Positions 1,418-46,435 of a stretch of DNA of 64,000 nt are shown in pieces; position 1 is the stretch's first letter; every line of letters starts with the position of its first letter. Position numbers and translations under genes: made by a program. Source of the DNA: Nymphaea colorata (Eukaryota; Streptophyta; Magnoliopsida; Nymphaeales; Nymphaeaceae). Under the pieces are notes generated by a model that searched no databases, was not told where the DNA came from, and saw only the letters and a list, made by a program, of their open reading frames with translations. The stretch lies in the NCBI RefSeq assembly GCF_008831285.2, contig NC_045144.1, positions 11,447,672-11,511,671 of the forward strand. Reading direction: 5' to 3'.

Positions 1418-1633
1418 TGTTGCAAATTGAGAGAGACGAAAGAGATGTCGAGGAAAGGAGAGAACTAGAGAGAGAGAGAGCCAAAAGGATTAATTCATTT
1501 ACGTAACCCTAATCTTTTTTAAAAGAGATTAGGGATGGCTGTAAACACTTTACAAAAACAGTCCAAAAACTATAAGAAAATGTTTAAATACATCCTTTCT
1601 AAGTTTCTAATATTTCAAAAATACTCTTTAACA
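1418..1633 (-). repeat. Copia-1 3' LTR
   Basis: On the plus strand it runs from TGTTGCAAATTG to CTCTTTAACA. It contains the inverted motif CCCTAATC...GATTAGGG, which recurs in the Copia-3 LTR, and a GA-rich stretch. It matches 4647-4864 almost base for base. The polypurine tract GAGGGAGAG (minus strand, 1634-1644) abuts it. Confidence 0.85.
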
Positions 1634-1640
1634 CTCTCCC

Positions 1641-2960
1641 TCAAGCTGGGGCATATATATCAATCATGCTCAGCTTACTATAACATCTCAGGAAATCGCC
1701 TATGGGAAGAGCCTTGGTGAGGATATCAGTTGCCTGATCTTCTGAGGAGACATGAATAGTGCTAGCAATTCCTTCTTGAACTAAGTCTCGAATATAGTGG
1801 CAATCCACTTCATTGTGTTTAGTCCTCTCATCAAAGACATGATTGTTAGCAATATATGTAGCTGCCTTGTTGTCACAATACATCTTCATTGAGAGATTCA
1901 CTGAAATACCCAACTCCAAAAGTAGTGATCTAACCCACAACATTTCAGCTGCAGTTTGAGCCATAGCCCTATATTCTGACTCAACACTAGAATGAGCCAC
2001 CACATTTTGCTTCTTGCTCTTTCAGAAAATAAGATTACCTCCCACAAAGACACAAAAACCTGTAATAGACTTCTTTTCATCTACAGATCCAGCATAATCA
2101 GCATCACTATAAGCTTCGATGTCAACACATTCTCCCTTTTTGAACCATAACCCCTTTTTCGGAGCTGATTTCAAGTATCTGACAATCATTAGAGCAGCAT
2201 CCCAATGAACCTTCTGAGGTTTTTCCATGAGCTGGCTTACTTATTCATAGCGAAGATAATGTCAGGGCGAGTGACAGTCAAATATAATAGTTTCCCTATC
2301 AGGGATCTTTAAGATCTAGAGTCAAACGGCTCTGAGTCATCATCATGTATACGAATGCGGGGATTCATGGGAAGTGTGGCAGGTTTAGCCCTCAAAGTCC
2401 TGTTTTCTGTAGAAGATCAAGGACATATTTCTTTTGAGACACTACAACTCCTTTATTACTACAAGCCACCTCAATACCATGAAAATAGCGGAGTTGTCCA
2501 AGGTCTTTAGTAACAAAGTGTTGCTGTAAAAACTCCTTTGTTTGAGCTATTTTTTGATCATTTTCTCCGGTAAGAACAATATCATCCACATAGACAAACA
2601 ATATCACCATTCCTGATGAGCCTCGCTTGATAAACAATGAGTGATCAAGCTGGAATCGGTGAAATCCACACTTAGATAACACCTTAGTAAGCTTCTGGAA
2701 CCATGCACGAGGACTTTGTTTGAGTCCATAAATAGCCTTTTTTAATTTGCATACCTTGGAACACTCCCCATCGCTCAAAACCAGGTGGTTGCTGCATATA
2801 GATGGTTTCAGAAAGGTCTTCATATAGAAAGACATTTTTCACATCCAGCTGAAAGAGAGGTCACTCTCGTTGGACAACAAGAGATATAATCAATCGAATA
2901 GTGCCCAACCGAGCCACAGGCGAAAATGTCTCAAAGAAGTCAATACTATAAGTTTGAGTA
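1641..2960 (-). pseudogene. Copia-1 reverse transcriptase / RNase H remnant
   Basis: Reading leftward from the 5S junction, the frames encode the start of a copia reverse transcriptase (FFETFSPVARL, about 2943-2890), then KLKKAIYGLKQSPRAWF and the catalytic YVDD (FVYVDDIVLTGE, about 2600), then RNase H (DADYAGS near 2100, YCDNKAATY near 1880) ending at a stop at 1641. The pieces lie in different frames (2392-2835, 2022-2228, 1641-2003), so several frameshifts or stops disable it. In the family this region copies the element RNA into DNA inside virus-like particles. The amino-terminal half of pol is missing. The closest relative in the window is Copia-3. Confidence 0.85.
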
Positions 2961-3110
2961 GCGTTGCGCGGGCCCTCGCCTGGACCTCCTCCGTCGGGGG
3001 GGGGCGGCCCACGTGGTGGCCAAGAAAAGGAGCGCAATGAGCACGCCGCGGCGGTTCGTGCGCGGGAGGCGGGCAAAAGACGGGAAGGGAAAGCGGTGCC
3101 GGGCAAAAAG

Positions 3111-3229
3111 GGGATGCAACACGAGGACTTCCCAGGAGGTCACCCATCCCAATACTACTCTCGCCCAAGCACGCTTAACTTCGGAGTTCTGATGGGATCC
3201 GGTGCGTTAGTGCTGGTATGATCGCACCC
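3111..3229 (-). rRNA. 5S ribosomal RNA, copy 1
   Basis: The 119-base minus-strand sequence runs from GGGTGCGATCATACCAGCAC to TCCTCGTGTTGCATCCC, the standard plant 5S rRNA, with the internal promoter region intact. Upstream are the plant 5S external elements: a TATA-like ATAAGTG about 29 bases before the start, GC at -12/-11 and C at -1. Directly downstream is a T5 run typical of RNA polymerase III termination. It looks potentially functional as a gene, although its position in a retrotransposon is unusual. Confidence 0.95.
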
Positions 3230-3542
3230 GCTAGGAGGTGCGAAGACAATTCACTTATGCGCAACGCGGCCCGTCGAAACACCCTCCCGCTGGCCACGGA
3301 AGAATACAAAAAGAAGCGGGGGAAAAAGAAAAAAAAAACTATCTTCGGATTACCGATTTGCTCCCCGTCGAGCGTGGGCGACGGGAGCATGCTGCGTTGC
3401 GCGGGCCCTCGCCTGGACCTCCTCCATCGCGGGGGGCGGCCCACGTGGTGGCCTAGCAGAGGAGCGCGATGAGCACGCCGCGGCGGTTCGTGCGTGGGAG
3501 GCGGGCAAAAGACGGGAAGGGAAAGCGGTGCCGGGCAAAAGG

Positions 3543-3661
3543 GGGATGCAACACGAGGACTTCCCAAGAGGTCACCCATCCCAATACTACTCTCTCCCAA
3601 GCACGCTTAACTTCGGAGTTCTGATGGGATCCGGTGCGTTAGTGCTGGTATGATCGCACAT
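3543..3661 (-). rRNA. 5S ribosomal RNA, copy 2
   Basis: Same 119-base gene with a few changes: the first two bases are AT instead of GG, and there are substitutions in the GGGCGAGAG and CTCCTGGG segments (GGGAGAGAG, CTCTTGGG). The upstream TATA-like, GC and -1 C signals are preserved. The downstream T run is shortened to four. Confidence 0.93.
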
Positions 3662-3976
3662 GCTAGGAGGTGCGAAGACAATTCACTTATGCGCAACGCG
3701 GCCCGTCGAAACACCCTCCCGCTCGCCGCGGAGGAATACGAAAAGAAGCGGGGGAAAAAGAAAAAAAAAAAACTATCTTCTGATTACCGATTTGCCCCCC
3801 GTCGAGCGTGGGCGACGGGAGCATGATGCGTTGCGCGGGCCCTCGCCTGGACCTCCTCCATCGCGGGGGGCGGCCCACGTGGTGGCCGAGCAGAGGAGCG
3901 CGATGAGCACGCCGCGGCGGTTCGTGCGCAGGAGGTGGGCAAAAGACGAGAAGGGAAAGCGGTGCCGGGCAAAAAG

Positions 3977-4095
3977 GGGATGCAACACGAGGACTTCCTA
4001 TGAGTTCACCCATCCCAATACTACTCTCGCCCAAGCACGCTTAACTTCGGAGTTCTGATGGGATCCTGTGCGTTAGTGCTGGTATGATCGCACCC
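3977..4095 (-). rRNA. 5S ribosomal RNA, copy 3
   Basis: Same gene; the start GGGTGCGATC is canonical. It carries substitutions in CACAGGATCC (normally CACCGGATCC) and in the GGTGAACTCATAGGAAG segment (normally GGTGACCTCCTGGGAAG), so it is the most diverged in its 3' half. External promoter signals and a T5 terminator remain. Confidence 0.93.
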
Positions 4096-4200
4096 GCTAG
4101 GAGGTGCGAAGACAATTCACTTATGCGCAACGCGGCCCGTCGAAACACCCTCCCGCTCGCCGCGGAAGAATACGAAAAGAAGCGGGGGAAAAAGAAAAAA

Positions 4201-4633
4201 GATATTGCTCCTCATGTCAAAACTGCATCTTCAAACAACAATGTGACTTCCCACACAGCAGCAAAAAGGGCAGATCTGATATATTATTTCGTAGATTTTC
4301 TTCACAGCAGTAGAAAATCAGATCTGATAAGCAGATCTGAGCGACATAGATATTCTTCCATGGCAACAGAAACTCAGATCTGAAACATCCTTATCAGATC
4401 CACAATCTTCTTCCATGGGAGCAACTTCATCAACATTTCTCCATGTCTTCCACGGCAACAACACAAGGGCGCTAATCACGTTTCTACATGTTAAACGTGA
4501 TTAGCCCCTTTTACCAAACAGATTACTTGCTTTTCTTGAAGTCAGCAAAAAATATACGCGTGAACCCTAACTTGGAGGAAGAGGCGAGAGATGAAGGAAC
4601 GTGAAACACTAGATAGCACAGTCCTAGATCTAG
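4201..4633 (-). other. Copia-1 untranslated leader / gag upstream remnant
   Basis: Sequence between the primer binding site and the 5S junction. It contains several CAGATCTGA motifs and a small inverted pair, CTAATCACGTTT...AAACGTGATTAG (about 4471-4505). No gag domain is recognisable. It ends abruptly at the A-rich 5S spacer. Confidence 0.6.
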
Positions 4634-4646
4634 GGCTCTGATACCA
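4634..4646 (-). promoter_or_regulatory. Copia-1 primer binding site (initiator Met tRNA)
   Basis: The minus strand reads TGGTATCAGAGCC directly after the 5' LTR end ...GCAACA. This matches the 3' end of plant initiator methionine tRNA, the usual copia primer, and fixes both the orientation and the LTR boundary. Confidence 0.9.
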
Positions 4647-4864
4647 TGTTGCAGATTGAGAGAGACGAGAGAGATGTCGAGGAAAGGAGAGAACCAGAGA
4701 GAGAGAGAGAGCCAAAAGGATTAACTCATTTACGTAACCCTAATCTCTTTTAAAAGAGATTAGGGCTGGCTGTAAACACTTTACAAAAACAGTCCAAAAA
4801 ATATAAGAAAATGTTTAAAGACATCCTCTCTATCTTTCTAATATTTTAGAAATACCCTTTAATA
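4647..4864 (-). repeat. Copia-1 5' LTR
   Basis: Plus-strand sequence from TGTTGCAGATTG to CCCTTTAATA. It aligns with the 3' LTR at 1418-1633 with about 14 visible differences, including a C-to-T change in the terminal AACA. AGTAA (4865-4869) follows as the right target-site duplication. Confidence 0.85.
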
Positions 4865-4869
4865 AGTAA

Positions 4870-4928
4870 CACACTGGATCGGGTCCAGATCCAGACCCAA
4901 ATATATGACCCAAATATAATATATGTCA
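4870..4928 (-). mobile_element. Copia-2 3' LTR, proximal part
   Basis: Minus-strand TGACATATATTATATTTGGG starts the LTR directly after the polypurine tract GAGGGGGAGTCT (4929-4940). The LTR is interrupted after about 60 bases by Copia-1 and continues at 1417. The pol stop codon TGA overlaps the first bases of the LTR. Confidence 0.7.
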
Positions 4929-6695
4929 AGACTCCCCCTCAAGTTGGGCATACATATCAAATATGCCCAACTTGAATACATTTCTCTCAAACTGAGTCAA
5001 ATGTAAGAGTTTAGTCAGAACATCAACAGTTTGGTATTTAAACTTCATATATGGTAGAATCAACTCTTTGGCATCAATTCTCTCCCGGATGAAGTGACGG
5101 TCAATCTCAACATGTTTTGTTCGGTCATGTAACACAGGATTATTGGCCAGATTGATTGCGGACTTGTTATCACAGTACATCTTCATATGTCCTTCAGTCT
5201 CTATCCCAATATTAGTTAGCAATACTTTCAGCCACAATAATTCTGACACTCCAATAGCAATAGCCCTATATTCAGCCTCTGCACTTGAGCGGGAACAAAT
5301 ATCTTGTCTCTTACTCCTCCAAACAACAAGATTTCCCTCCAAGTGGACGCAGTACCCTGAAGTAGATCTTCTAGTATCAACACAGTCTGCCCAGTCTGCA
5401 TATGAATACCTTTCAATCTCAATTGGCCCTTGTTTCACATATAGAGACCCTTTGCCAGGATTCCTCTTCAAGTAGCACAAAATTCTATCAACAACCTTCA
5501 AGTGAATATCTGTAGGAGCATGCATGAACTGACTCATCACATTTACAGCAAAGGTGATATCAGGTCTAGCCAGAGTGAAGTAGATCAATCTTCCAACCAG
5601 ACGTTGATACCTCCCCTTAGCCTCTTCACAAAGAGGTTCTCCATCCTTAATATTGAGTTTGTGTCCGGCATCTAGAGGAGTAGAAGTCGGTCTACACCCT
5701 AGTTTTTCTGTCTCCTTCAGTAAATCCAAGGTATACTTCCTTTGATTTAGCACAAGGGTCGTACCTGATCTAGCAATTTCAATACCCAGAAAACACCTTA
5801 GTTTGCCAAGGTCCTTGAGATGAAATTCGACAGCCAGTAAACCCTTTAATCTTGTTATCTCATCTTCATCATCACATGTAACAATCATATCATCAACATA
5901 CACTAACAAAAGAGTAACCTTACCCTCCTTTCTTTTTACAAATAGAGTATGATCTGTGTTTCCTTGACTGTAGCCATGTTGTCTCATTACAAATCTAAGG
6001 CATTCAAACCATGCTCGGGAAGACTGCTTGAGCTCATACAATGCCTTCTTCAGTTTACAACATTTTTCCGGTTTCTCATATCCTGGGGTCATACACATAT
6101 ACACTTCTTCTTCAAGATCTCCATTGAGAAAAACATTCTTCACGTCAAGTTGGTATATCTTCCACTCCTTCAACACTGCTAGAGAAATAATAACTCTAAT
6201 AGTATTCATCTTCACAACAAGAGCAGAAGTCTCCAAGTAGTCAATCTCATATTTCTGACTAAACCCCTTGGCAAACAGGTGAGCTTTGTACCTCTCAACA
6301 CTCCCATCTGGTTTGTACATATTGGTATAGACCAACTTGGATCCAACCAGATGAGCCACTTCAGAGATCTCCACCACTTCCCACATCCGGTTTTTGCTCA
6401 AGGCTTCCATCTCTTCTTGCATTGCGTGAGTCCATTTGGGATCACTCTGAACCTCTGTAACAGTCCTGAGAATCACAACCAAAGAAAGAGACGATACAAA
6501 GCATTTGTAATCATTGCTCAGTCGAGAATATGATACAAAGTTACCAATAGGGTGTTGAGTACATGACCTGACATGCTTTCTCAGGGCAATGGGAAGCTCC
6601 TTATTTTCAGTTTCTGTCTGAATGTCTTTCTCTTTTGTGTTGAGCACGACTTGGGTCATCCAGGGAAGAAATAGCATTGGTATTAGGAGTAGTAT
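4926..6695 (-). CDS. Copia-2 pol: reverse transcriptase and RNase H (interrupted)
   Basis: An uninterrupted frame on the minus strand encodes a Ty1-copia reverse transcriptase (DPKWTHAMQEEMEAL, MYKPDGSVERYKAHLFAKG, YQLDVKNVFLNGDLEEEVYM, LKKALYELKQSSRAWF, catalytic YVDD near 5895) followed by RNase H (DWADCVDTRRSTSGYC, SAEAEYRAI, YCDNKSAINLANNPV) and a stop at 4926. This is the 3' half of a copia polyprotein. The frame stays open to 6977, but everything above 6695 is antisense of the chromovirus LTR and not copia protein. The upstream integrase part lies at 18721-19023, displaced by the chromovirus. The frame carries no internal stop, so decay since insertion is modest. Confidence 0.88.
   Translation of the reverse strand: MLLLIPMLFLPWMTQVVLNTKEKDIQTETENKELPIALRKHVRSCTQHPIGNFVSYSRLSNDYKCFVSSLSLVVILRTVTEVQSDPKWTHAMQEEMEALSKNRMWEVVEISEVAHLVGSKLVYTNMYKPDGSVERYKAHLFAKGFSQKYEIDYLETSALVVKMNTIRVIISLAVLKEWKIYQLDVKNVFLNGDLEEEVYMCMTPGYEKPEKCCKLKKALYELKQSSRAWFECLRFVMRQHGYSQGNTDHTLFVKRKEGKVTLLLVYVDDMIVTCDDEDEITRLKGLLAVEFHLKDLGKLRCFLGIEIARSGTTLVLNQRKYTLDLLKETEKLGCRPTSTPLDAGHKLNIKDGEPLCEEAKGRYQRLVGRLIYFTLARPDITFAVNVMSQFMHAPTDIHLKVVDRILCYLKRNPGKGSLYVKQGPIEIERYSYADWADCVDTRRSTSGYCVHLEGNLVVWRSKRQDICSRSSAEAEYRAIAIGVSELLWLKVLLTNIGIETEGHMKMYCDNKSAINLANNPVLHDRTKHVEIDRHFIRERIDAKELILPYMKFKYQTVDVLTKLLHLTQFERNVFKLGIFDMYAQLEGES
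6691..6695. repeat. Target-site duplication of the chromovirus (left)
   Basis: AGTAT precedes the LTR start TGTAATGC and recurs at 18716-18720 right after the last LTR end GTGTGACA. This shows that the whole 12-kb block between them occupies one insertion site. Confidence 0.8.
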
Positions 6696-9600
6696 TGTAA
6701 TGCTCGTTGGTTCGGCGGGTCGGGTCGAGCTAGGGTCCAGACCCGGAACCGACCCCCACTCGCGTAAGGGCCCGACGCGAGGCCCTTCTCCCTCGCCTTT
6801 CCCTTCCTTCTTTGTTGTCTCCGGTGGTTTCCTGTGGCAGCGCAGAGGGAGGAGAGTGACGGTTGGGTGGTGGTGGCTGGAACGGCGACGGCGACGGCGA
6901 CGGAGGTGGCAGTGGCGGCGGCGGCGGCTGGGTAAACCCTCTCTCTCTCGTGCGATTTTTCTTGCTCTGCCACTCATGCCCTTTTGTTTGTTTTGCTCTC
7001 TGCCGCACGTCCCCTCTTCTTCTCTCTCGCCATTTTCTTTCCCCTCTTTCCGCTGGTTCTCTACCGCTCGACCCTCTTCTCACTCACCCGCACTCCCCCG
7101 CCTGCTCTTTCTCTCTCTTCTCACCCCACGGCCGTTTTCCCCCTTGACCGAACCCTTCCTCTCTCTGTCTCTCCTCTCTGTCAGCGTCCCTTTTCTTTGT
7201 TTATTTCAGTTTTTTTCCCCCACTACTACCGTGGGTCTTTCCTAGCAACAGAGTTTGTGTTAAACTTTTTGGGCGTTTGGGGTTGGTTTGCAGTTTAGGG
7301 GACGTTTTCCCCTCTTACCTGCTAGTAGGCTGTGTAGTGAGCAGCGACAGCAAGCAATCTCGAGCATTGGCACTTGATCGGACGTGTGAAGTGGTTGCTA
7401 GAAGGGTTGTAGCAGTTTGGACGCTTGTTTTGGGGTGAGCAATACCTAATCAAGCTCAAAATGATGAGTATTTATCTTTTAGAGCATGTATAATTATGGT
7501 TCGAGCATGCTAGAGCTTAGAATTGATGATTTTAGGACGCATGTTAGTAATTTTGTTTTTGGGGGAAACTTAGGATTTGCGTTGGAAAGTGATGATTCAT
7601 GTACTTAATGATCGTTTTAGCATGATGGATTAATTTTCGAAGCTTTAGGGAAGCATGGTAGAGATTGTGTGGTTGTGGGGAAGATTTAGAACCATCTTAG
7701 GGAGTGTAGCGCAGACTTCGGTAAACAGGTGTATCATGAAGTTCTTTAGGGATATATGCGTATTGGGATGTGACTTGAGGTTGATGCCTTACTTAAAGAA
7801 CGTTATTGAGAAAGGAATTAGTGATGGTTTGATTGATGGTTGAAGGCTTTGATAATTCAAGGCAACGTCAAGACGTAAAGGAGGAGGCCTTGTGGAGAGC
7901 CCGTTGGTCGACACTACCTGTCGATACCCTCTTGAGGCGCTGACACGTGCCTCAAGGATTTTATTTTTGTATCTGTTCGTTTCTATTTGATTGGTGTAGG
8001 TATCTAGTAGAAACCTTATTCTTGTTTATGTTTGCAGGTGCACCGGGCTCATCCCGTCGACCTTGAGTTCGAAGCTTGAGGCATTTTGAAGAATTTGGTG
8101 AGCGCGCCACAGGTATGGCAACTTTCCAGGCAAATTCCTGCCTGGGGCAATTGTGTGATTGGGTGCTCCTAGGATCAAGGGATCCTAGGATTGTGATGTT
8201 AATTGATTGACTGTTTTGTGATTGAGTATGTGTATGTTGCTTACATGATATGAATGGGTTAGAAAGATTATTAGTCATTCGATTTAAAAATGTTACGCAT
8301 TGGCATGTGCATGCTAGAATTGATATCTGTTTAGGACAGATGAGGTGGGGTATCGAGTCGAGTGTCTCCTCGACCCCAATTGTGCATTAGAAAGCATCAT
8401 AGAATGATAACTGCATAGGACAGCTACGAGCCAACCGCAGATCGAGACTACTCTCTGTGGATTGGCTAAGTTTTTCGAAGAGGTGATTGACATGATTGAT
8501 GTGAGGATTGATGTGATGATTGATATGAATGTGTATGTTGTTGCATATGCATTGCCATGGGCAATGATGCAAATGGATGTTTTGGAGGGTAGTTGTACCC
8601 GTATGGTATGACGGCTAGCAATGACTGTTACTGTATGTATAGACCTCATGTGGAGGTAATCGGAGGTGTGGGTGCACTCGGGAAGTGTACTGACCTCGTG
8701 TGCTAGCCAGTCATCTTATGAATGTGTAACTATAATGATAAGAATGAATAACTAAGAGATGAGAGACCAGTGGGATGTGGCTATGTGTTTGGGAGACGTC
8801 CCCCTTGATTGCCACTGGTCTCGCCTGTCAGAGCGCAGGCGGTGCAAGGCCCCAGGGTTCTGTTGTGTGTTGTGCTTGGAGCGTTGAGCTCCTGCCTTCC
8901 CAACCTGGGTGTCCTAGGGAAGGCTGAGTATCTCACCTTGGACGTCACACATCCAGGGATGAGTGCTCTACCGCTGCAGCGGGTGAAATGGATCCATACT
9001 GTTATGGGCCACCACGGGGGTTGTCTCTCGGCTGTAGGCCGCCCGCGGTGTGCACGTGCCTGTGTTGCACCCACAGGAACTGTTAATGCACTAAAGTTAA
9101 TGAAAATGCAAAGTGTTTGACAGAATGCATGTGACTGACGTATATGTGATTGATATGAATGCAAGTGTTATGTTTAAGCATGCTTCGCATGTGACTGATG
9201 TTGGGTTAGTGTGGCCATCAAGTGGCTTTTACGTGTCGCACTCAGACGCGACATGACGATAGATGGGTTGATATTTGTCCCTTTATTTGAGCCTTACTTG
9301 AGAGGGTTTGGCATTTTTCTGGCTTGTTGCCATACTGCGAAGGCTGAGCCTTCAGTTGTTTTCTTTTTCAGGTTTTGGCGGACCCGGGGCAACAGGTTGA
9401 GCGGATGGCTTCACTCACGTCCTACTGGGGTGGTTTTGGTATTGTCGTTTGTAGTGCCGGCGCGTCATGTTTTGGTTTTATTGATGTCTTCTTTTTGTTA
9501 GGCATCAATGTTATTGATTTTGGGGCATTTTGGTCATGCACATAGATGTGAATTTGTATGAAACAAAAGGGTTATATTAATGCTTTATGTTTGCCCCATT

Positions 9601-9713
9601 GTTTTGAATTGCTTGGCTCATCGTCAATTTGAATTGTTTGGTAGTCACACCTCGATGCTTTATGTTTTGAAAAAAAAAATATAGTTTGAGGGTAAAAAGG
9701 TCGGGGTGTGACA
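6696..9713 (+). repeat. Chromovirus 5' LTR (3018 bp)
   Basis: From TGTAATGCTCGTTGG to GGGGTGTGACA. The first 600 bases are GC- and CT-rich, with GGCGACGGCGAC triplet runs; the rest is AT-richer. It is followed directly by the primer binding site. Frames inside it, including the sense frame at 6622-7245, lack homology to proteins I know and are shared with LTR 2 simply because the DNA is repeated. No obvious host gene is captured. Confidence 0.92.
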
Positions 9714-9717
9714 GTTT

Positions 9718-9730
9718 TGGTATCAGAGCC
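9718..9730 (+). promoter_or_regulatory. Chromovirus primer binding site (initiator Met tRNA)
   Basis: TGGTATCAGAGCC lies four bases after the LTR end. It is complementary to the 3' end of initiator methionine tRNA, as in chromoviruses. Confidence 0.9.
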
Positions 9731-9952
9731 ATGGCAAACCCCATTATGGATGTGAGTTAAAGTCTATCTGTGAAGCCGTGTTGCCCAGGTACGCATTTGT
9801 TTGATTAGTTGGTTATTGTAGTTTTGATTTTTTTTCAAGTATAGGTATGTAATGTGATCTGTGTTTTGAACTTCGTGCTAATGCACGTTGTGATTTGACT
9901 TGTGAGTTTGGTATTGGTCGTGATTTGAGAATTTAAGATCTTGTTTGTACAG

Positions 9953-12900
9953 ATGGAATATCATCGTAGGGGTAAGAAGCGAGCTGGGCCGTCTTCAGAG
10001 GCACATAGAGAGCCCAGCCCAACCCATTCTGATGCGCATACTCCGCGGGGTGACAGTGCGTCAGAGCCCCAGTATGCCCAGCTAGGTGGGGGTGCCCAAA
10101 CCCCACCGAGACAGACTCCGCCAGTGGATCAGCAGACTATATTGCTGACCACGTTAGTGCAGTCTATGGTCGGTAATCAGAGGAGTAACGCATCTCCTTC
10201 GGGGGACACCAGTGCTCCAATTCGGGAGAAGGCAACGATAGTGTCTTATCAACAGTTTATGGCGATGCAGGCGCCTATCTTTTCAGGAGGGGGCAGTCAT
10301 GACAAGGCAAAGGACTGGATTGAAGATGTTGAACGTATTTTTGGGCTTCTGAAGGTGCCAGAAGAAGATAGAGTGAACTATGGCTCCTATTTGTTGAAGG
10401 GTGATGCCAAGAATTGGTGGCAATCAACTAGTGAGATTCGGTTCGCTGGCCAAGGGTCAATCTCATGGAAGCAGTTCAGAGATTCCTTCTTCAGCACATA
10501 CTTTCCGGTGTATGCCAGAGACAAGAAAATGCAGGAGTTTCTGGATTTGCAGCAGAATCAGTCGAGCTTAGAAGAGTACATTACGAGATATCGGCACTTG
10601 GAGGTGTATTGCCCACACCTTTACAGTACCGATGAGGCCAGAGCGGGCAAGTTTGTGCGCGGGCTGCGAGATGGACTACGAAGCAAAGTGTTGACAAGTA
10701 GACCTCGTGACTTGGATGAGGCGGTTACAATGGCACGATGCATAGAAGAAGATTGGGTGAGGACACAGAAGGATCATCAGAAGAAAGCAGGCCAGCATTC
10801 ACAAGGTGGACGGACACAGGTAAAGCGCCAACACTTTGCGGGCAGGACAAGGCCTTATGAGAGGCGGGATGACCGAACTTTCAGACGGAACCAGTCTACC
10901 CGTAGTGAGGCCACCCAGGGGTCAGTGGCCACTCCGACTTCTCAGAAGTGCCCCACTTGTTCTCGTGTGCACCCCGGGAAGCCGTGCTATTGGGTGACTG
11001 GGGCTTGTTTACACTGCGGAAGTATGGGACACTTCATCAAGGATTGCCCGTTGAAGAAAGAACGAGAATTGAAGAAGCCTGAAGCCGGTTCTTCTAGCGC
11101 ACGACAAACGTCTGGACGTGTCTACGCTACTACTGTGGAGGAGCTCCAGGCACACGACCTCGTTGAAGGTACTTTACTTGTCAGTTCTCATTTTGCTAGA
11201 GTGTTATTTGATGCAGGAGCGACACATTCTTTTATATCTAGTCGATTTGCTACATCACTCGAAGTGTCGGCTAGAAGAATGCCGTATGTTTTAAAAGTTG
11301 TTAGTCCGATGCATGCTCAAGAGTCGTGTCATGAGTATCTTCCTGATGTGAACGTGGAAATCCATCAACTTCACCTACCTGCACAGTTGGTGATCCTCGG
11401 TCTCAATGAGTTTGATGTGATTTTGGGTATGGATTGGTTGTATGCTCATTATGCCATTATAGATTGTAGGAAGAAGCAGATACAGATGTTGACTAATGAG
11501 ATGCAGTCTGTGGAATTTCGTGCTCGTAGGGCCAGTCGAACTGATAAGATATTGGTGTATGCATTGAAGGCTAAGCGATGGATAGAAAGTGGAAGCGTTG
11601 CCTTCTTGGTCAATGTGTTGATCAATGAGGCTGAATGGATGATATTGCAGGATGTTGCCGTGGTGAGTGAGTATCCTGATGTGTTTCCTGAGGAATTGTC
11701 GAGTTTGACTCCAACTCGAGAAGTGGAGTTCAAGATAGAGTTGTTACCAGGGACAACTCCTATTTCTAAGGCACCCTACCGTATGGCACCAGCAGAGTTA
11801 GAAGAGTTGAAGAAGCAACTGTAGGAGCTCTTAGATAAGGGCTTCATCCGACCTAGCGTGTCTCCTTGGGGAGCACCTGTACTGTTTGTGAAAAAGAAAG
11901 ATGGGACTATGCGCTTGTGTATAGATTATCGTATGTTGAATCAAGTCACCATCAAGAATAAGTATCCGCTTCCAAGAATTGAAGACTTGTTTGATCAGCT
12001 TAAGAATGCAAAGGTTTTCTCTAAGATCGATCTGAGGACAGGCTACCATCAACTATTGATACGGGAGGAAGATGTTTCTAAGACTGCCTTTCGAACTAGG
12101 TATGGACATTATGAATTCAGGGTCATGCCTTTTGGGTTGACTAATGCTCCCGCAGCGTTCATGGACCTCATGAATCGGGTTTTCCAAGAGTTCTTGGATC
12201 GTTTTGTTATTGTGTTTGTTGATGATATTTTGGTGTACTCAGAGAGTGAGGCAGAGCACAGAGACCACTTGAGAAGTGTGTTAGGTCTTTTGCGCAAGCA
12301 CAAGCTTTACGCCAAATACTCAAAATGTGAATTTTGGCTAGAGAAGGTAAACTTTCTGGGTCATGTGATCTCGAAGGATGGAGTATCCGTCGATCCGGCT
12401 AAGGTGTCAGCTGTTCAGGACTGGAGAACACCTTGCAGTGTAACTGAGGTTAGAAGCTTTTTGGGATTGGCAGGATACTATCGCAGGTTCATACAAGACT
12501 TTTCGAAAATAGCTACGCCCATGACTAAGCTATTGAGAAAAGGGATGAAGTTTGTGTGGAATGAAGATTGTGAGAAGAGTTTTCAAACTCTAAAGGACAA
12601 GCTTACTTCTGCCCCTATTCTGACGCTTCCATCAGGTCATTCCGGTTTTGTGGTGTACACTGATGCTTCGGGGATCGGTTATGGTTGTGTGTTGATGCAG
12701 CATGGCCGTGTAGTGGCTTATGCATCAAGACAGTTGAAGACCCATGAGCAGCACTATCCCACTCATGATTTGGAATTGGGAGCAGTCGTGTTCGCATTGA
12801 AGATGTGGAGACACTATCTTTATGGTTCAACATTCGAGGTGTTTACAGATCACAAGTCCCTGAAGTATATATCCTCACAAAGGGATCTCAACTTGAGGCA

Positions 12901-14541
12901 AAGAAGATGGATGGAATATTTAAAGGATTATGATTTCACCATATCGTATCATCCAGGCAAGGCGAATGTGGTGGCAGATGCGTTGAGCAGGCATGCCAAG
13001 GCGACAATGTGCAGTATGTTGACTCGTTCTTGGGCATTATTGCAAGATGTGATAGCTTGGCAGCCTTGCATTTGTGATGAGCACAAGGCAACGATGACGG
13101 CCTTGATTCGGCGTCCTTTGATGGAAGAACTTGTAATGAAACAAAAGGAAGATCCAGAGTTTGCTAAGAACATGGAAGCAAGCCAGAAAAACGATTCTCT
13201 TTGGCATCAAAATGAAGATGGTTCATTGCGTTTTCGGCAGAGATTATGGGTTCCTAGAGATGAAGGAGTGAAGCGTCTGTTGCTTGATGATGCTCACAAA
13301 TCTAAGTTTTCTATTCCCCCGGGCAGTACAAAGATGTTTCAAGATTTGAGAAGAAATTTTTGGTGGCCTGGAATGAAGCGTGAAATTGCAGAATATGTGG
13401 CAAAGTGCTTGATTTGCCAACAGGTAAAAGCAGAGCATCAGCGGCCAGGAGGCTTGTTGCAAAGAATCGATATTCCAGTGTGGAAATGGGAAGACATTAC
13501 GATGGATTTTGTGGTTGGGTTGCCTCGTACCAAAAGACAACAGAATGCCATATGGGTGATTGTTGATCGACTTACGAAGTCTGCTCACTTTCTGCCAATC
13601 AGAATCAGTCAATCATTGGAAAGTCTCGCAGAGTTGTATATTGGCGAGATAGTGAGATTGCATGGAGTGCCAAAGTCTATCATTTCGGATCGAGATCCGC
13701 GTTTTACCTCTAGGTTTTGGGGGCAATTACAGAGGGCTTTGGGTACCAAGCTTAAGATGAGCACAGCATTTCATCCCCAAACTGATGGGCAATCAGAGAG
13801 GACTATTCAGACCTTAGAAGACATGTTGCGTGCATGTGTCTTAGAGTGGAAAGGAGAATGGGACAAACATGTGAAACTGGTAGAATTTGCTTACAATAAC
13901 AGTTACCACTCTAGTATTGGGATGGCACCTTTTGAGGCTTTGTATGGAAGACCGTGCAGATCGCCAACTTGTTGGGCCGAATTGGGTGATGGTAAGATCG
14001 AAAGCCCTTTAGTTTTGCTACACTACACCGACCAAGTGGAATTGATAAGAAAGAAGTTGTTGACTGCTCAGAGTAGACAGAAAAGTTATGCTGACATTCG
14101 TCGTAGAGAATTGGCTTTTGAGGTGGGTGATCATGTGTTTTTAAAGATTTCTCCTACTAAGGGTGTTTTTCGCTTTGGTACGAAGGGAAATTGAGCCCGA
14201 GGTTTGTAGGACCTTTTGAGATATTAGAGAAGATTGGAGAGGTGGCATACAGATTGGCGTTACCACCAGATTTGAGTCATGTTCATGACGTTTTCCATGT
14301 TTCCAGGCTTCGAAAATACGTACCCGACCCGACACATGTGATTGATTTTCAAGGTATTCTAGTACAAGATGATTTGACAATGGAAGAACAACCATTAGAA
14401 TTGTGGATCATCGAGAGCAAGTGCTTCGCACTAAGAGGATTCCTTTAGTGAAAGTGGAATGGCAGTACCATGGGTTGAAGGAGAGTACATGGGAGCATGA
14501 GGAGGACATGCGGAAGAGATATCCGCACTTGTTCTTGCATT
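9953..14541 (+). pseudogene. Chromovirus gag-pol polyprotein, nearly intact
   Basis: Starts at ATG 9953 (MEYHRRGKKR). Domains in order: gag capsid (about 10300-10750, KDWIEDVERIFGLL), CCHC zinc knuckle (CLHCGSMGHFIKDC, near 11008), aspartic protease (LFDAGATHSFIS near 11205; DAGA in place of the usual DSGA or DTGA), reverse transcriptase (LCIDYRMLN, catalytic FVDD near 12217), RNase H ([11 protein letters not shown], near 12655), integrase with HHCC zinc finger ([11 protein letters not shown], near 13410), the GLPRT and [11 protein letters not shown] segments, and a carboxy-terminal chromodomain (14395-14541). Three lesions break it: an in-frame TAG at 11822-11824 and -1 shifts near 14190 and 14397, both in short A runs. 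The product would copy and integrate the element. Apart from these lesions it would be full length, so it is young or partly mis-sequenced. Confidence 0.92.
14395..14541 (+). other. Chromodomain at the integrase C-terminus
   Basis: In the frame shifted by one base from the preceding segment, residues read IPLVKVEWQYHGLKESTWE and then EDMRKRYPHLF before TGA at 14539-14541. The W-x-x-H...E-x-T-W-E pattern is the chromodomain fold seen at the end of chromovirus integrases, thought to bind modified histones and direct insertion to heterochromatin. The two -1 shifts upstream would prevent its translation as the sequence stands. Confidence 0.85.
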
Positions 14542-14580
14542 GAGGTATGAGCTAAATTTCGAGGACGAAATTTTCTTTTT

Positions 14581-14592
14581 AGGAGGGTAGGA
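14581..14592 (+). promoter_or_regulatory. Chromovirus polypurine tract
   Basis: AGGAGGGTAGGA sits immediately before the second LTR start TGTAATGC. It primes plus-strand DNA synthesis in this family. Confidence 0.85.
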
Positions 14593-17500
14593 TGTAATGC
14601 TCGTTGGTTCGGCGGGTCGGGTTGAGCTAGGGTCCAGACCCGGAACCGACCCCCACTCGCGTAAGGGCCCGACGCGAGGCCTTTCTCCCTCGCCTTTCCC
14701 TTCCTTCTTCGTTGTCTCCGGTGGTCTCCTGTGGCAGCGCAGAGGGAGGAGAGTGACGGTCGGGTGGTGGTGGCTGGAACGGCGACGGCGACGGCGATGG
14801 AGGTGGCAGCGGCGGCGGCGGTGGCGGCTGGGTAAACCCTCTCTCTCTCGTGCGATTTTTCTTGCTCTGCCACTCATGCCCTTTTGTTTGTTTTGCTCTC
14901 TGCCGCACGTCCCCTCTTCTTCTCTCTCGCCATTTTCTTTCCCCTCTTTCCGCTGGTTCTCTACCGCTCGACCCTCTTCTCACTCACCCGCACTCCCCCG
15001 CCTGCTCTTTCTCTCTCTTCTCACCCCATGGCCGTTTTCCCCCTTGACCGAACCCTTCCTCTCTCTGTCTCTCCTCTCTGTCAGCGTCCCTTTTCTTTGT
15101 TTATTTCAGTTTTTTTCCCCCACTACTACCGTGGGTCTTTCCTAGCAACAGAGTTTGTGTTAAACTTTTTGGGCGTTTGGGGTTGGTTTGCAGTTTAGGG
15201 GACGTTTTCCCCTCTTACCTGCTAGTAGGGTGTGTAGTGAGCAGCGACAGCAAGCAATCTCGAGCATTGGCACTTGATCGGACGTGTGAAGTGGTTGCTA
15301 GAAGGGTTGTAGCAGTTTGGACGCTTGTTTTGGGGTGAGCAATACCTAATCAAGCTCAAAATGATGAGTATTTATCTTTTAGAGCATGTATAATTATGGT
15401 TCGAGCATGCTAGAGCTTAGAATTGATGATTTTGGGACGCATGTTAGTAATTTTGTTTTTGGGGGAAACTTAGGATTTGCGTTGGAAAGTGATGATTCAT
15501 GTACTTAATGATCGTTTTAGCATGATGGATTAATTTTCGAAGCTTTAGGGAAGCATGGTAGAGATTGTGTGGTTGTGGGGAAGATTTAGAACCGTCTTAG
15601 GGAGTGTAGCGCAGACTTCGGTAAACAGGTGTATCATGAAGTTATTTAGGGATATATGCGTATTGGGATGTGACTTGAGGTTGATGCCTTACTTAAAGAA
15701 CGTTATTGAGAAGGAATTAGTGATGGTTTAATTGATGGTTGAAGGCTTTGATAAGTCAAGGCAACGTCAAGACGTAAAGGAGGAGGCCTTGTGGAGAGCC
15801 CGTTGGTCGACACTACCTGTCGATACCCTCTTGAGGCGCTGACACGTGCCTCAAGGATTTTATTTTTGTATCTGTTCGTTTCTATTTGATTGGTGTAGGT
15901 ATCTAGTAGAAACCTTATTCTTGTTTATGTTTGCAGGTGCACCGGGCTCATCCCGTCGACCTTGAGTTCGAAGCTTGAGGCATTTTGAAGAATTTGGTGA
16001 GCGCGCCACATGTATGGCAACTTTCCAGGCAAATTCCTGCCTGGGGCAATTGTGTGATTGGGTGCTCCTAGGATCAAGGGATCCTAGGATTGTGATGTTA
16101 ATTGATTGACTGTTTTGTGATTGAGTATGTGTATGTTGCTTACATGATATGAATGGGTTAGAAGATTATTAGTCATTCGATTTAAAAATGTTACGCATTG
16201 GCATGTGCATGCTAGAATTGATATCTGTTTAGGACAGATGAGGTGGGGTATCGAGTCGAGTGTCTCCTCGACCCCAATTGTGCATTAGAAAGCATCATAG
16301 AATGATAACTGCATAGGACAGCTACGAGCCAACCGCAGATCGAGACTACTCTCTGTGGATTGGCTAAGTTTTTCGAAGAGGTGATTGACATGATTGATGT
16401 GAGGATTGATGTGATGATTGATATGAATGTGTATGTTGTTGCATATGCATTGCCATGGGCAATGATGCAAATGGATGTTTGGAGGGTAGTTGTACCGTAT
16501 GGTATGACGGCTAGCAATGACTGTTACTGTATGTATAGACCTCATGTGGAGGTAATCGGAGGTGTGGGTGCACTCGGGAAGTGTACTGACCTCGTGTGCT
16601 AGCCAGTCATCTTATGAATGTGTAACTATAATGATAAGAATGAATAACTAAGAGATGAGAGACCAGTGGGATGTGGCTATGTGTTTGGGAGACGTCCCCT
16701 TGATTGCCACTGGTCTCGCCTGTCAGAGCGCAGGCGGTGCAAGGCCCCAGGGTTCTGTTGTGTGTTGTGCTTGGAGCGTTGAGCTCCTGCCTTCCAACCT
16801 GGGTGTCCTAGGGAAGGCTGAGTATCTCACCTTGGACGTCACACATCCAGGGATGAGTGCTCTACCGCTGCAGCGGGTGAAATGGATCCATACTGTTATG
16901 GGCCACCACGGGGGTTGTCTCTCGGCTGTAGGCCGCCCGCGGTGTGCACGTGCCTGTGTTGCACCACAGGAACTGTTAATGCACTAAAGTTAATGAAAAT
17001 GCAAAGTGTTTGACAGAATGCATGTGATGACGTATATGTGATTGATATGAATGCAAGTGTTATGTTTAAGCATGCTTCGCATGTGACTGATGTTGGGTTA
17101 GTGTGGCCATCAAGTGGCTTTTACGTGTCGCACTCAGACGCGACATGACGATAGATGGGTTGATATTTGTCCCTTTATTTGAGCCTTACTTGAGAGGGTT
17201 TGGCATTTTTCTGGCTTGTTGCCATACTGCGAAGGCTGAGCCTTCAGTTGTTTTCTTTTTCAGGTTTTGGCGGACCCGGGGCAACAGGTTGAGCGGATGG
17301 CTTCACTCACGTCCTACTGGGGTGGTTTTGGGATTGTCGTTTGTAGTGCCGGCGCATCATGTTTTGGTTTTATTGATGTCTTCTTTTGTTAGGCATCAAT
17401 GTTATTGATTTTGGGGCATTTTGGTAATGCACATAGATGTGAATTTGTATGAAAAAAAGTGTTATATTAATGCTTTATGTTCGCCCCATTGTTTTGAATT

Positions 17501-17600
17501 GCTTGGCTCATCGTCAATTTGAATTGTTTGGTAGTCACACCTCGATGCTTTATGTTTGAAAAAAAAATATAGTTTGAGGGTAAAAGGTCGGGGTGTGACA
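14593..17600 (+). repeat. Chromovirus second (middle) LTR (3008 bp)
   Basis: Near-identical to 6696-9713. The differences are mostly single-base deletions, which become frequent after about 16480. It is followed not by flanking DNA but by another primer binding site (TGGTATCAGAGCC, about 17605) and a second leader and gag start. Confidence 0.92.
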
Positions 17601-18306
17601 GTTTTGGTATCAGAGCCATGGCAACCCCATTATGGATGTGAGTTAAAGTCTATCTGTGAAGCCGTGTTGCCAGGTACGCATTTGTTTGATTAGTTGGTTA
17701 TTGTAGTTTTGATTTTTTTTCAAGTATAGGTATGTAATGTGATCTGTGTTTTGAACTTCGTGCTAATGCACGTTGTGATTTGACTTGTGAGTTTGGTATT
17801 GGTCGTGATTTGAGAATTTAAGATCTTGTTTGTACAGATGGAATATATCGTAGGGGTAAGAAGCGAGCTGGGCCGTCTTCAGAGGCACATAGAGAGCCCA
17901 GCCAACCCATTCTGATGCGCATACTCCGCGGGGTGACAGTGCGTCAGAGCCCCAGTATGCCCAGCTAGGTGGGGGTGCCCAACCCACCGAGACAGACTCC
18001 GCAGTGGATCAACAGACTATATTGCTGACCACGTTGCAGACGCTGACCACGTTAGTGCAGTCTATGGTCGGTATCAGAGGAGTAACGCATCTCCTTCGGG
18101 GGACACCAGTGCTCCAATTCGGGAGAAGGCAACGACAGTGTCTTATCAACAGTTTATGGCGATGCAGCGCCTATCTTTTCAGGAGGGGCAGTCATGACAG
18201 GCAAAGGACTGGATTGAAGAGGTTGAACGTATTTTTGGGCTTCTGAAGGTGCCAGAAGAAGATAGAGTGAACTATGGCTCCTATTTGTTGAAGGGTGATG
18301 CCAAGA
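17601..18306 (+). pseudogene. Second, partial chromovirus internal region (leader and gag start)
   Basis: It repeats 9714-10413: primer site, leader, and gag from the ATG at 17838 to the codons for KGDAK, where sequence jumps directly into the last 410 bases of an LTR. Gag is frame-shifted many times by one-base losses (for example GAATATATCG for GAATATCATCG), and a 12-18 base duplication around GCTGACCACGTT is present near 18030. It is non-coding as it stands. Confidence 0.88.
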
Positions 18307-19023: not shown

Positions 19024-19255
19024 TGTTGCAGCCTTGAGACATGGAGAGAAAGTGAGAAAGAGTTGAAGTCGTGAGAGTTTGGGGAGAGAAAACGTACTCT
19101 ATTCACTAACCCTAATCTCTATTATAAAGAGATTAGGGTAGAATGGAAATTTACAGATGACATCAATCTAAAATAAAGAAAATATTAAAGAGATCTTATA
19201 ACTCTTTAATATTACAAAGAACCACCTAGAAACATAAACTCCTTTAATTTCAACA
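19024..19255 (-). repeat. Copia-3 3' LTR
   Basis: Plus strand TGTTGCAGCC...ATTTCAACA, 232 bp, with the internal CCCTAATCTC...GAGATTAGGG inverted motif and GA-rich region also seen in Copia-1. A GAGGAGGAG polypurine tract (minus strand) precedes it at 19256-19264. The 5' LTR is not in view because of the gap at 20579. Confidence 0.8.
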
Positions 19256-19262
19256 CTCCTCC

Positions 19263-20578
19263 TCAAGCTCGAGCATACATATTAAACATGTTCAGCTTGC
19301 CACAACATTTAGAGAAATCACCAATAGGGAGAGCTTTGGTGAAGACATCTGCAGCTTGATCTTCTGAAGGAACATGAATAGTGGCAATGGTTCCTCCTTG
19401 AACGAGATCCCGAATGTAATGGCAGTCACCTTCAATATGTTTAGTTCTCTCATGAAAAACTAGATTGTTTGCAATGTATGTGGTTGCTCGAATGTCACAA
19501 TACATCTATCTTCATGGGAAGTGGAATCGACACACTTAGGCTAGATAACATGGATATAGCCCAAGTCATTTCTGCCTGCAGTTTGAGCCATAGCTCTATA
19601 TTCGGATTCTACACTAGATCTTGACACCACGCCTTGTTTTTTGCTTCTCCATAATATGAGGTTGCCTCCCAAAAATATACATCTTGTGGTAGATTTCCTG
19701 TCTTCGACTGAGCCAGCATAGTCAGCATCACTATAGGCTTCCACTTCCAGGGTCTTGCCTTTTTTGAACAAAAGGCCTTTGCCAGGAGACGATTTCATAT
19801 ATTTAACCACCATCAAGCAGCATCCCAATGAACTTTCCTGGGTTTTTTCATAAATTGACTTAGTTTTCCCACTACAAAGCTAATGTCTGATCTTGTCACA
19901 GTAACATAGAGTAGTTTTCCAATAAGGACCTGTAAGATCGAGAATCCACTAATTTTGTTTGGTCATCATGAAGGTGTATACGTGGATTCATAAGTAAATT
20001 AGCCAGTTTAGTTCCTAGCATCCATGTGTCCTGCAATAAATCAAGAACATACTTCCGTTGAGAGAGAACAACACCATCCCTATTGCGAGCAACCTCTATT
20101 CTCAAGAAATATCGTAGTGGACCAAGATCTTTCATCACAAAGTGTTTTTGAAGAAACAGCTTTGCATCAGAAATTTCTTGATCGGAGTCACCTGTCAGGA
20201 TAATATCATCAACATAAACCACTATGATGGTTTACCCCTGGAAGCCTTCTTGATAGACTGAGAATGATCAAAAGGAGATCTCGCAAAGCTACACTTTGAG
20301 ACTACCTCGAAAAACTTGTGAAACCACGCATGAGGACTCTGCTTGAGTCCATAAATAGTTTTCTTCAGTTTGCACACTTTGCCACACTCCCCCTATCGTT
20401 CAAACCCTGGTGGTTGTTGCATATAGACAGTCTCATTGAGATCACCGTAAAAAAATTTTTTTTGACATCAAGCTGGTACATGTGCCAGTCATGGTGTACA
20501 ACCCCAAAAATGATAAGACGAATGTTCTCAAACCGAGCAACCGGAGAAAATGTCTCAAAGAAATCCACACCGTAGGTC
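19263..20578 (-). pseudogene. Copia-3 reverse transcriptase / RNase H, broken
   Basis: From the gap leftward: VDFFETFSPVAR (about 20570), YQLDVK, a decayed middle, MVYVDDIILTGDSDQE (near 20210), KYVLDLLQDT, then RNase H (DADYAGSVEDRKSTT near 19730, then HERTKHIEGDCHYIRDL near 19440), ending at 19263. Reading frames are split at least three times. The sequence is closely related to Copia-1 pol, and whatever preceded it lies in the N run. It belongs to the Ty1-copia superfamily. Confidence 0.85.
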
Positions 20579-20678
20579 NNNNNNNNNNNNNNNNNNNNNN
20601 NNNNNNNNNNNNNNNNNNNNNNNNNNNNNNNNNNNNNNNNNNNNNNNNNNNNNNNNNNNNNNNNNNNNNNNNNNNNNN
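20579..20678. other. Assembly gap (100 N)
   Basis: Exactly 100 N, the conventional length for a gap of unknown size. It separates Copia-3 from an unrelated gypsy LTR, so sequence is missing here and the two sides may not be truly adjacent. Confidence 0.99.
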
Positions 20679-21195: not shown

Positions 21196-21479
21196 TTACT
21201 CCCCCTTTCGAAAAAACCTTGTCCTCAAGGTGTGATGAACCAAATCAAATGTTGACAAACAAAAGTCTTTCCATGTCTGCAGCCAACTAGGGCTATAGCT
21301 AATAGTAAAAACATGGCTTGACAATAGCCATGATAGTGTAAGGATACATTTGAAAGTCAGCTTCTCCTGCTCAAAAACTTCCTCCAAGTTGGCATGAGAC
21401 AGTATTCCTAACAATGGCAAACCAGCTATTGGGTAATTGGGATATGCGTTCTGTTGCGTGAGCCCTGTCATGAGAGATC
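21196..21479 (-). pseudogene. Gypsy-2 pol C-terminal remnant
   Basis: On the minus strand, close to the LTR, one frame reads HLEDKVFSKGG, a signature found at the very end of gypsy polyproteins, preceded in another frame by LQTWKDFCLSTFD, corresponding to the TWED segment of the C-terminal region. Only about 280 bp is left before an unrelated GA-rich block. Confidence 0.6.
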
Positions 21480-21685
21480 CAAGGAGAAGGGACAAGGGAG
21501 AGAGAGAGAGAGAGAAAACTGCACTCTGTTTTTATTATTATGCCCTAATCTCATATTAAATGAGAATTAGGGTAACACTAACAAATTACATAGAAAGTCC
21601 AAGAATAAAACAACTATTAATAAGAGTCGTTCCTACAACTATTAAATATTCAAAAACTACCTAACATAAATGTCATTCAACATGT
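21480..21685 (-). mobile_element. Copia LTR-like fragment
   Basis: The GAGAGAGAGAAAACTGCACTC and CCCTAATCTCATATTAAATGAG blocks follow the same plan as the Copia-1 and Copia-3 LTRs (GA tract, AAAAC, CCCTAATC...GATTAGGG inverted motif, AT-rich end). No pol accompanies it, so it may be a solo LTR inserted in Gypsy-2. Ends are uncertain. Confidence 0.45.
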
Positions 21686-21903
21686 TCCTTAGCTTTCTTG
21701 TTCCATATTTGAAAAGTTGCAGTTGAGGTCTGCATTTGGATTTGATGCAAAAGTTGCCAGCTCTAGAAGATGAGGTAACAACTAGTGGGTAGTACTCTGA
21801 AGCAGTCGGCCTTGGAACTTCTCAATTATTTAGTCTAGTGAAATGATTTGAGCAACCCTGGTACCAATTTATGTCGGTTCCATCTAGTAGCTTCTTCCTC
21901 GAA

Positions 21904-24699: not shown

Positions 24700-26640
24700 A
24701 TAAGTAGCTTATCCCCATCAAATGTAGATGGCAATAGCATGTCGGGAAGTAGCATGTCGGGAAGTGGGACTTGAATAGAGGGGTGGTCCCCATTCTCGGG
24801 ATCAGATTCATCTGATCTACTTCTTGGGCACGAACCAGAGAGCTTCTCCGCTTCTCTCCTCTGGCTCAATTCCTCCTTCAATTGCTTCTTCTGGAACAGT
24901 TTCACTCGATAGTCATACTCCTGGAAATAGGCCTTCCTCTGTTCCTTGCTCAGCTTAGCTATCTGAGATTTTCCCAAAGGTTTGAATGGTGGAAGCTGAT
25001 CATATTCTTCTTCGTCAGTATCAGCTTCAGGCAACTCTTCCTCCATCTCAAAGTATGCTTCCTCATGATCTGCAGAGGCAAGACTAGGATGGGATCTTGA
25101 CTGGAACAATGAGGACAGCAGAAATGGAACCGGTACTGAACGATAACGATGACCACGGAACAAGAGTTTTGTGATGGCAGGATCTTGCGGTCTCAGTAGA
25201 GAATTTACTTCTGTTAATATCTTAGAAGAGTAGCATAACAGGAGCAACCGAGGCTGCCAACTCTGCCCATTGGGCAGCACCTGGTGGCCGCGTTGATTCC
25301 GTCTGCATGTGGGTGGTTCTCAACAAGCACCACCTGATTCATGAGACGCATATCTCCAGCTGCCTGCCGGATGGAATTCTGAACGGCTTGCGACCTATGT
25401 GAAACCAATGTTTCATAAGGAAGTGGAGAGCCGCTGGGACCTTCTGGTGGTGCAGAAGATGCATGAGTGAGAGCCACGTTGACATTGAACCATATGGATG
25501 TCCCAAGGTTAGAGGTGATCGACTCTAACAATGGAAGATTATTGGTGTCACGTGAACAGGTGTCCATCCGATCGACATAAAAGATAATATCTGGTGGGAA
25601 TTTCTTCATGAATTTCTTCACCGACGAAAGAAATTTCCTGTTGGTACGCTGTTCCATAACTGAAGGTCTTAATCCTGGAGTATCAATCACTCGAAGTTTC
25701 ACACCATCCACAATGCCAGTGGTCACTCGCACCATACTTGTAGCTGGCCGAAAGGCATCGGTTGGAACTTTGTCTTCACCAAATATAGAATTGATGGTTG
25801 TACTCTTGCCAACTCCAGTCCTTCCAATGACCAAAATAGTGCAGGAGAAGTCGATCTCCTCTTTGCCATCTTCTTCTAGCTTTTTTGCAGTTTGGAAAGC
25901 GGTGTCTAGGCTGAAGAGTCTAGTAGTTTTACTATTCCTCGTTCCTTCAGCAAGAGCTAACCTGTAAAGAACCTGAGCAACAGCCGACTCGTCGAGTGAC
26001 TGTCCTAATCTGTAGACAAGGCGCAAAAAATTCATCCTGATCATGTTTATCTTGTCATGAAGCTTCTTCTCTTCATCATCCATGTTCTCTGTTTCTGATT
26101 CTCTCGTGGCAGAAGAACCAAAATTACCTGCACTACTAATTCTGCGAGGTGCAGACAGACCTAATGCCTGAACTGATGAGTGATGATCCCAAACTGGCAG
26201 GGTTTTGAGAGGTGGATCTGGCATTAACATTGCTCGTGGCCTTCAACAGAGCAGTCAGGGTAGCTGAATCAAACAACACTTTATCATCATCACCATATTC
26301 TTCTTCTTCTTCACTATCTGCTGCCTCAATGATGTGAGATGCGGTAGACCCGTTCTCAGCAAATCTGACGTCAGAGTTTCTGGAGAACTTCACGAAATTC
26401 TCTAACTCCCTGACGAAATTCAAATCGTCACTGTTGTCACCTGTAGCAATTGATCCATCATCAGCATCCAGCTCTTGCTTGTTTCTAATTTCGGAATCAT
26501 TTGGCCCCTGTGAACTAGTTCGGGGTGACTTATTCACGACCAAGTTCTGCAATTACCCTGGTGCCACCAGCCACTTTGGTCTCTATTGATCCCAACTTCC
26601 CGCCATTATCCTCTACCTCCAGAGAGCTCGTGCCAAAAGA
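24700..26640 (-). pseudogene. TOC159-family chloroplast import GTPase, truncated and frame-shifted
   Basis: TOC159-type proteins are GTPase receptors in the outer chloroplast envelope that recognise transit peptides; they have an acidic A domain, a GTPase G domain and a membrane-anchoring M domain. Here an acidic segment (26552-26290, EEEEEYGDDDKVLFDSATL) is followed by the G domain (25214-26230) with P-loop GRTGVGKST at about 25800, switch DTPGLRPS at about 25670, and ALTHASSAPPEG. Then, after a -1 shift near 25290, comes LPNGQSWQPRLLLLCYSSK up to YDQLPPFKPL and EQRKAYFQEYDYR, ending at LPSTFDGDK. The M domain should start there, but AT-rich repeat DNA follows. Another shift separates A and G domains near 26215. 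Pseudogene of the TOC90/120/132/159 group. Confidence 0.88.
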
Positions 26641-46432: not shown

Positions 46433-46435
46433 ACT

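Follow-up and report, generated by a model that had tools for sequence, protein, structure and literature searches.

Three tandem 5S rDNA units within a defective Ty1-copia retrotransposon, possibly joined in after the element had inserted

It is debated by what means 5S loci travel around plant chromosomes, and the available excerpt of PMC5688495 lists retrotransposition and extrachromosomal circles among the proposed routes, with such circles named as a route of 5S gene spread. The same excerpt describes 5S arrays of wheat in which 5S rDNA and LTR elements are interleaved. Cassandra is an LTR retrotransposon with 5S sequence, and the accessible part of PMC7215508 gives TGGTATCAGAGC as its conserved primer-binding site (PBS). 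Ajax / TRIMp3, as described in the excerpt of PMC10886601, are LTR elements that lack autonomy, contain sequence derived from 5S and show 5-base duplications. Host sequence is also held by gene-capturing LTR retrotransposons (excerpt of PMC3726574), and the filler DNA of plants consists of genomic segments copied from elsewhere into a break (excerpt of PMC3445842).

The locus presented here lies in a window of 64 kb, the whole stretch of DNA that was analysed, and combines a Ty1-copia-type element with three tandem 5S units and their spacers in its internal region. The structure is real in the given sequence, and it is unusual. Judged from sequence alone, and with a probability that we put at roughly 0.6, a dead piece of 5S rDNA was joined as a patch into a resident Ty1-copia element after its insertion, as opposed to having been brought along by a mobile carrier. 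As the 5S units sit in an element whose insertion can be dated, carriage can be separated from later arrival at one and the same locus.

Architecture of the element and its 5S block

The Ty1-copia-type element occupies positions 1418-4864 on the minus strand and is flanked by two copies of the target-site duplication AGTAA, the left one at 1413-1417 and the right one at 4865-4869. Its 3' LTR (1418-1633, minus strand) and 5' LTR (4647-4864, minus strand) can be aligned over 216 bases and differ by one indel and by 15 substitutions, of which 10 are transitions and 5 transversions, corresponding to a K2P distance of 0.073. The 3' LTR is adjoined by a polypurine tract (1634-1644, minus strand), a feature whose role in LTR retrotransposons is general knowledge, and the 5' LTR by the primer-binding site TGGTATCAGAGC of the initiator-Met type (4635-4646, minus strand). 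The paired TG...CA LTRs and the 5-base duplication are those of a Ty1-copia member, as are the primer-binding site and the polypurine tract beside the LTRs; one outer end, that of the 5' LTR, has decayed and reads TA instead of TG on the element strand. The first-pass annotation, which had called the LTR ends intact, was slightly too strong in this one respect, while the primer site, the polypurine tract and the matching AGTAA duplications that it had listed are all present in the sequence. That we are dealing with one complete insertion is evident from the duplications, which match, and from the primer site and the purine tract. Regarding the direction of the LTR changes, T or A is found in the 3' copy at 8 of the 10 transitions, as if this copy were the more decayed one.

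Between the polypurine tract and the 5S block lies a truncated and frameshifted RT / RNase H remnant (1645-2960, minus strand). Two of its pieces match the copia-type RT domain RVT_2 (Pfam PF07727), with E 1.4e-28 (100.6 bits) and E 4.2e-4 (20.4 bits), the weaker one staying under the curated cut-off of 31.6 bits. Two further pieces, which gave no Pfam matches at E 0.01, we take to be RNase H from motifs typical of Ty1-copia. The retained RT / RNase H sequence is spread over several frames and interrupted by stops. The RVT_2 match begins at position 45 of 244 only, so that the first ~44 of the 244 domain positions are gone together with gag, protease and integrase. Ahead of the RT just the leader (4201-4634, minus strand; with an inverted repeat at 4465-4510) and the 5S block are found, and no gag reading frame was recognised in the leader when its frames were judged by eye. 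With gag, protease and integrase absent, the element is a defective derivative and not an autonomous member of Ty1-copia. It had been proposed before that a 5S array replaces the gag-protease-integrase interval, which is correct as far as it goes, except that the loss extends into the start of the RT.

The 5S rDNA block covers 1240 bases (2961-4200, minus strand) and is made up of three tandem units of 433, 434 and 373 bases (2961-3393, 3394-3827 and 3828-4200, all on the minus strand), the third of which, on the leader side, is short by about 60 bases. The units differ pairwise by 3.75-4.4% (19/432, 16/373 and 14/373). Both ends of the array fall within spacer, not at gene borders; the junction with the RT lies at 2960/2961, and the junction with the leader, at 4200/4201, is situated in an A-rich stretch of the plus strand. 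Each of the three 5S rRNA genes is 119 bases long and matches the Rfam family RF00001 on the minus strand. Gene 1 (3111-3229; 110.8 bits) has boxes A and C and five T behind it. Gene 2 (3543-3661; 98.2 bits) has both boxes as well, with four T behind it and changes in the first bases and in stem positions, while gene 3 (3977-4095; 95.7 bits, five T behind) has kept box A and shows a changed box C. Compared with gene 1, the other two genes are altered in stems or in one promoter box, and by its sequence gene 1 is the copy closest to whole. No other Rfam match in the 64 kb reaches the gathering threshold (38 bits); calculated for the whole window, the E-values of the three genes are 1.6e-23 to 1.6e-19, and chance is excluded as their source. 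Tandem genes with spacers of regular length are what characterises genomic 5S rDNA repeats, and the block was described as such in the first-pass annotation, with three 119-bp genes pointing in the direction of the element between the leader and RT / RNase H; Rfam, the unit lengths and the common minus-strand orientation of genes and element all agree with this description. No 5S match was found by Rfam in the flanks outside the element within the window. The possibility that the element had landed in a 5S array was considered and rejected, given that the flanks outside the duplications carry no such match.

Relative age of the 5S block and the insertion

If the 5S sequence had been captured before insertion, the block and the LTR pair should be of equal age. 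Changes in the 5S block were counted on a three-branch star over the 373 columns common to the three units, in an analysis that is exploratory and is set against an LTR of just 216 bases. The block shows 10 changes in 288 non-CpG columns and 14 in 85 CpG columns; in the LTR pair, 15 changes fall on the 210 non-CpG columns, and the 6 CpG columns are without change. Per branch, the non-CpG change in the block, 10/(3x288), compared with that in the LTRs, 15/(2x210), gives a ratio of 0.32 (95% interval 0.13-0.77, one-sided p 0.0046). For the spacer alone, with 5/(3x184), the ratio is 0.25 (interval 0.07-0.73, p 0.004), and for the gene columns alone 0.45 (p 0.08). Under equal age ~32 non-CpG changes are predicted against the 10 observed (P 0.003), and the non-CpG transitions taken alone give equal age a P of 0.0096. 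All sites together yield a ratio of 0.62 (interval 0.31-1.27, p 0.10), and for transversions alone 9 are observed, by hand count from the list of changes, vs ~14 predicted under equal age (P 0.28). Retention of CpG speaks against equal age if CpG transitions are at least about 5 times faster, the test being set at 10 or fewer and the hand count being 9. It is only via the non-CpG sites and this conditional CpG retention that equal age is rejected.

The observed/expected ratio of CpG reaches 1.13 in the 5S block. In the remainder of the element it is 0.46 and 0.57 for the two LTRs, 0.36 for the RT and 0.54 for the leader, and the window as a whole has 0.54. Because the source 5S was presumably CpG-rich, the high value in the block can be read as absence of decay only on condition that the block is methylated; its CpG columns change at about five times the frequency of the others, as in methylated DNA. 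In a live 5S array conserved genes are expected. Here 8/119 gene columns and 16/254 spacer columns have changed (Fisher p 1.0), and since genes and spacers vary equally, the changes would mostly postdate the move or else be inherited from the already dead fringe of an array. If some of the differences between the units date from before their arrival, the block is even younger than estimated. An old block could have been given a young appearance by gene conversion, be it among its units or with genomic 5S arrays, and LTRs that were unequal at insertion would lead to the element being dated too old. At the rate of 1.3e-8 used in the excerpt of PMC5688495, a borrowed and rough rate, the LTR distance corresponds to about 2.8 million years and the 5S block to about one third of this. 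Taken as a whole, the comparison favours an arrival of the 5S block after the insertion of the element.

A patching of the resident element could have proceeded as follows. The insertion of an ordinary Ty1-copia element generated the AGTAA duplication, and a later break in this element may have led to the loss of gag, protease and integrase together with the start of the RT. This break would then have been closed with genomic 5S rDNA some three units long. Two routes are likely: the repair may have used a 5S array as its template, producing filler DNA, or a 5S circle may have been excised and integrated. Filler DNA is reported to be copied in at plant break repair in the excerpt of PMC3445842, and for plant satellites circles sized in multiples of the repeat unit are described as common in that of PMC2543021. 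Three units minus about 60 bases would fit a three-unit circle that was opened and trimmed, and would fit a random slice of an array equally well. The 5S copies would since then have been decaying without constraint, which is supported by the equal change in genes and spacers. If the patching account is true, a seed of three 5S units was placed by repair or by circle integration.

The 5S array could instead have been acquired before this insertion, for instance through a template switch inside the particle or by way of a chimeric donor, and then transposed via an autonomous relative. LTRs, primer site, purine tract and duplications enclose the block and are complete for mobilisation in trans, and the 5S genes are oriented with the element, as a sense transcript would require. 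Captured genes are also on record for LTR retrotransposons, with 672 of them in rice and 1,343 in sorghum (excerpt of PMC3726574), and a sister element in the window stops about 6 bases from the homologous site. We nevertheless regard such carriage as unlikely: the non-CpG age comparison is contrary to it, the inclusion of the spacers means that an RNA intermediate must read through the T stretches at the gene ends across three units, and no second such 5S-bearing copy is present within the 64-kb window. Between the two possibilities raised by the first-pass annotation, the age comparison favours repair of an inserted element, whereas the mobile 5S carrier is disfavoured, not refuted. If carriage is true, the element is a direct vehicle for 5S.

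There is also a reading in which the 5S units form a working dispersed locus that uses the element merely as a site. Gene 1 would suit such a locus, as its Rfam match is full-length, the two promoter boxes are present and a run of five T follows; the damage to genes 2 and 3, and genes that are no better conserved than the spacers, make it highly improbable.

Assembly gaps, a sister element and the neighbouring repeats

The window contains two 100-N gaps, at 20579-20678 and 56992-57091, from which it follows that the assembly is scaffolded. A sister copia-type element (19024-20578, minus strand) runs into the first of them. It is 69% identical to the 5S-bearing element over 1487 columns, from inside the LTR to the RT; BLAST pairs position 20565 with 2941, and ungapped continuation brings 20578 opposite 2954, some 6 bases from the junction at 2960/2961. 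This stop near the junction, which was noticed post hoc, could be due to chance, to a shared weak point of assembly or to a second bearer of 5S. Within the window, the sister's LTR recurs only as partial matches to the LTRs of the 5S-bearing element, and no match to the leader of the latter was found elsewhere. The sister element was considered as a stand-in for the missing part and set aside, as it ends in the assembly gap.

An artefact, in which the true sequence inside the element is another or a longer one and 5S sequence, as reads or as a contig, entered by overlap or gap closing, would be compatible with the presence of the two gaps, one of which cuts the sister about 6 bases from the homologous breakpoint as if at a weak point, and with the A-rich stretch at 4200/4201, where false overlaps come easily. 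Against this, the same 5-base duplication on both outer flanks makes the two halves very likely one element, so that only the middle could be false, and units that are ~4% apart, with genes 2 and 3 damaged, are unlike the collapsed consensus of a live array. We consider an artefact improbable. A chimera of two loci was judged unlikely as well, given the matching duplications. Very doubtful is a further suggestion, that a defective copia family in which tandem 5S units replace gag, protease and integrase has spread in trans, with the sister at 19024-20578 as another bearer with an array so repetitive that the assembly failed there; if true, such a family would seed dispersed 5S loci.

Several other repeats and frames were noted around the locus. 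Directly to the right of the 5S-bearing element, at 4926-6682, there is a second copia-type RT (RVT_2), and the adjoining purine tract suggests that the 5S-bearing element may be nested in the 3' LTR of this copia element, the other end of which seems to be cut by a repeat beginning at 6683. Direct repeats of ~3.7 kb (6683-10412 and 14579-18306; 98% identical) enclose a frame at 11825-14194 with RVT_1, RNase H and integrase zinc-binding domains, and together these probably represent a young gypsy-type element with long LTRs. A solitary LTR-like stretch starting with TGTTGC lies at 21450-21690 and has just 18-27-base matches elsewhere in the window. A Toc159-like GTPase frame (25214-26242, minus strand) has 42 homologous proteins at E <= 1e-40, and the best eight of these share 48-58% identity with it along 69-89% of its length; the homologues named are from seed plants, none of them close, and the frame is possibly a fragment. 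Judged by such genes, the DNA comes from a land plant, and probably from a flowering one. An aspartic-protease frame of the TAXi type is located at 41118-41972, and a stretch on the opposite strand at about 46433-47478 is 74% identical to it in DNA.

Comparison with known 5S-bearing elements and captured sequences

Identity with Cassandra or TRIMp3 was considered and rejected, the LTRs being free of 5S promoter boxes. With the consensus for boxes A and C of 5S-derived sequences taken from the excerpt of PMC7215508, neither box has an exact match in the LTRs on either strand, and there is no Rfam 5S match in them. Exact matches on both strands of the whole window amount to three for box A and two for box C, all of them in the internal 5S block. 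The RT remnant between the LTRs also sets the element apart from TRIMs, which have no coding domain there. The contrast that the first-pass annotation had drawn with Cassandra holds: the LTRs have neither 5S boxes nor an Rfam match, and the genomic 5S units are internal. As far as the accessible parts of PMC7215508 and PMC10853983 describe Cassandra, its 5S-like domain lies inside the LTRs and gag/pol domains are absent, whereas here three 5S units with spacers are internal and stand beside the remains of an RT. Ajax / TRIMp3, which resemble the present element in being non-autonomous and in their 5-base duplications, differ by having the 5S sequence in the LTR and come from two nemertean genomes (excerpt of PMC10886601).

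Among the open-licence literature matches listed, themselves available in part, none reports an LTR retrotransposon whose internal region holds genomic 5S units in tandem. The gene-capturing LTR retrotransposons likewise hold host sequence within an element; the captured genes are not described as 5S arrays in the excerpt of PMC3726574, while here tandem RNA genes and spacers are found, and the age test is contrary to a capture before insertion. Plant filler DNA (excerpt of PMC3445842) shares with our preferred reading, the later patch, that a genomic segment from elsewhere enters a break, and the difference lies in the segment, a tandem 5S stretch of 1.24 kb in a retrotransposon, for which no such case appears among the literature matches listed. 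The arrangement in wheat is the reverse of the one described here: in the excerpt of PMC5688495 the elements sit in 5S arrays, and in the present locus a piece of 5S rDNA sits in an element with non-5S flanks.
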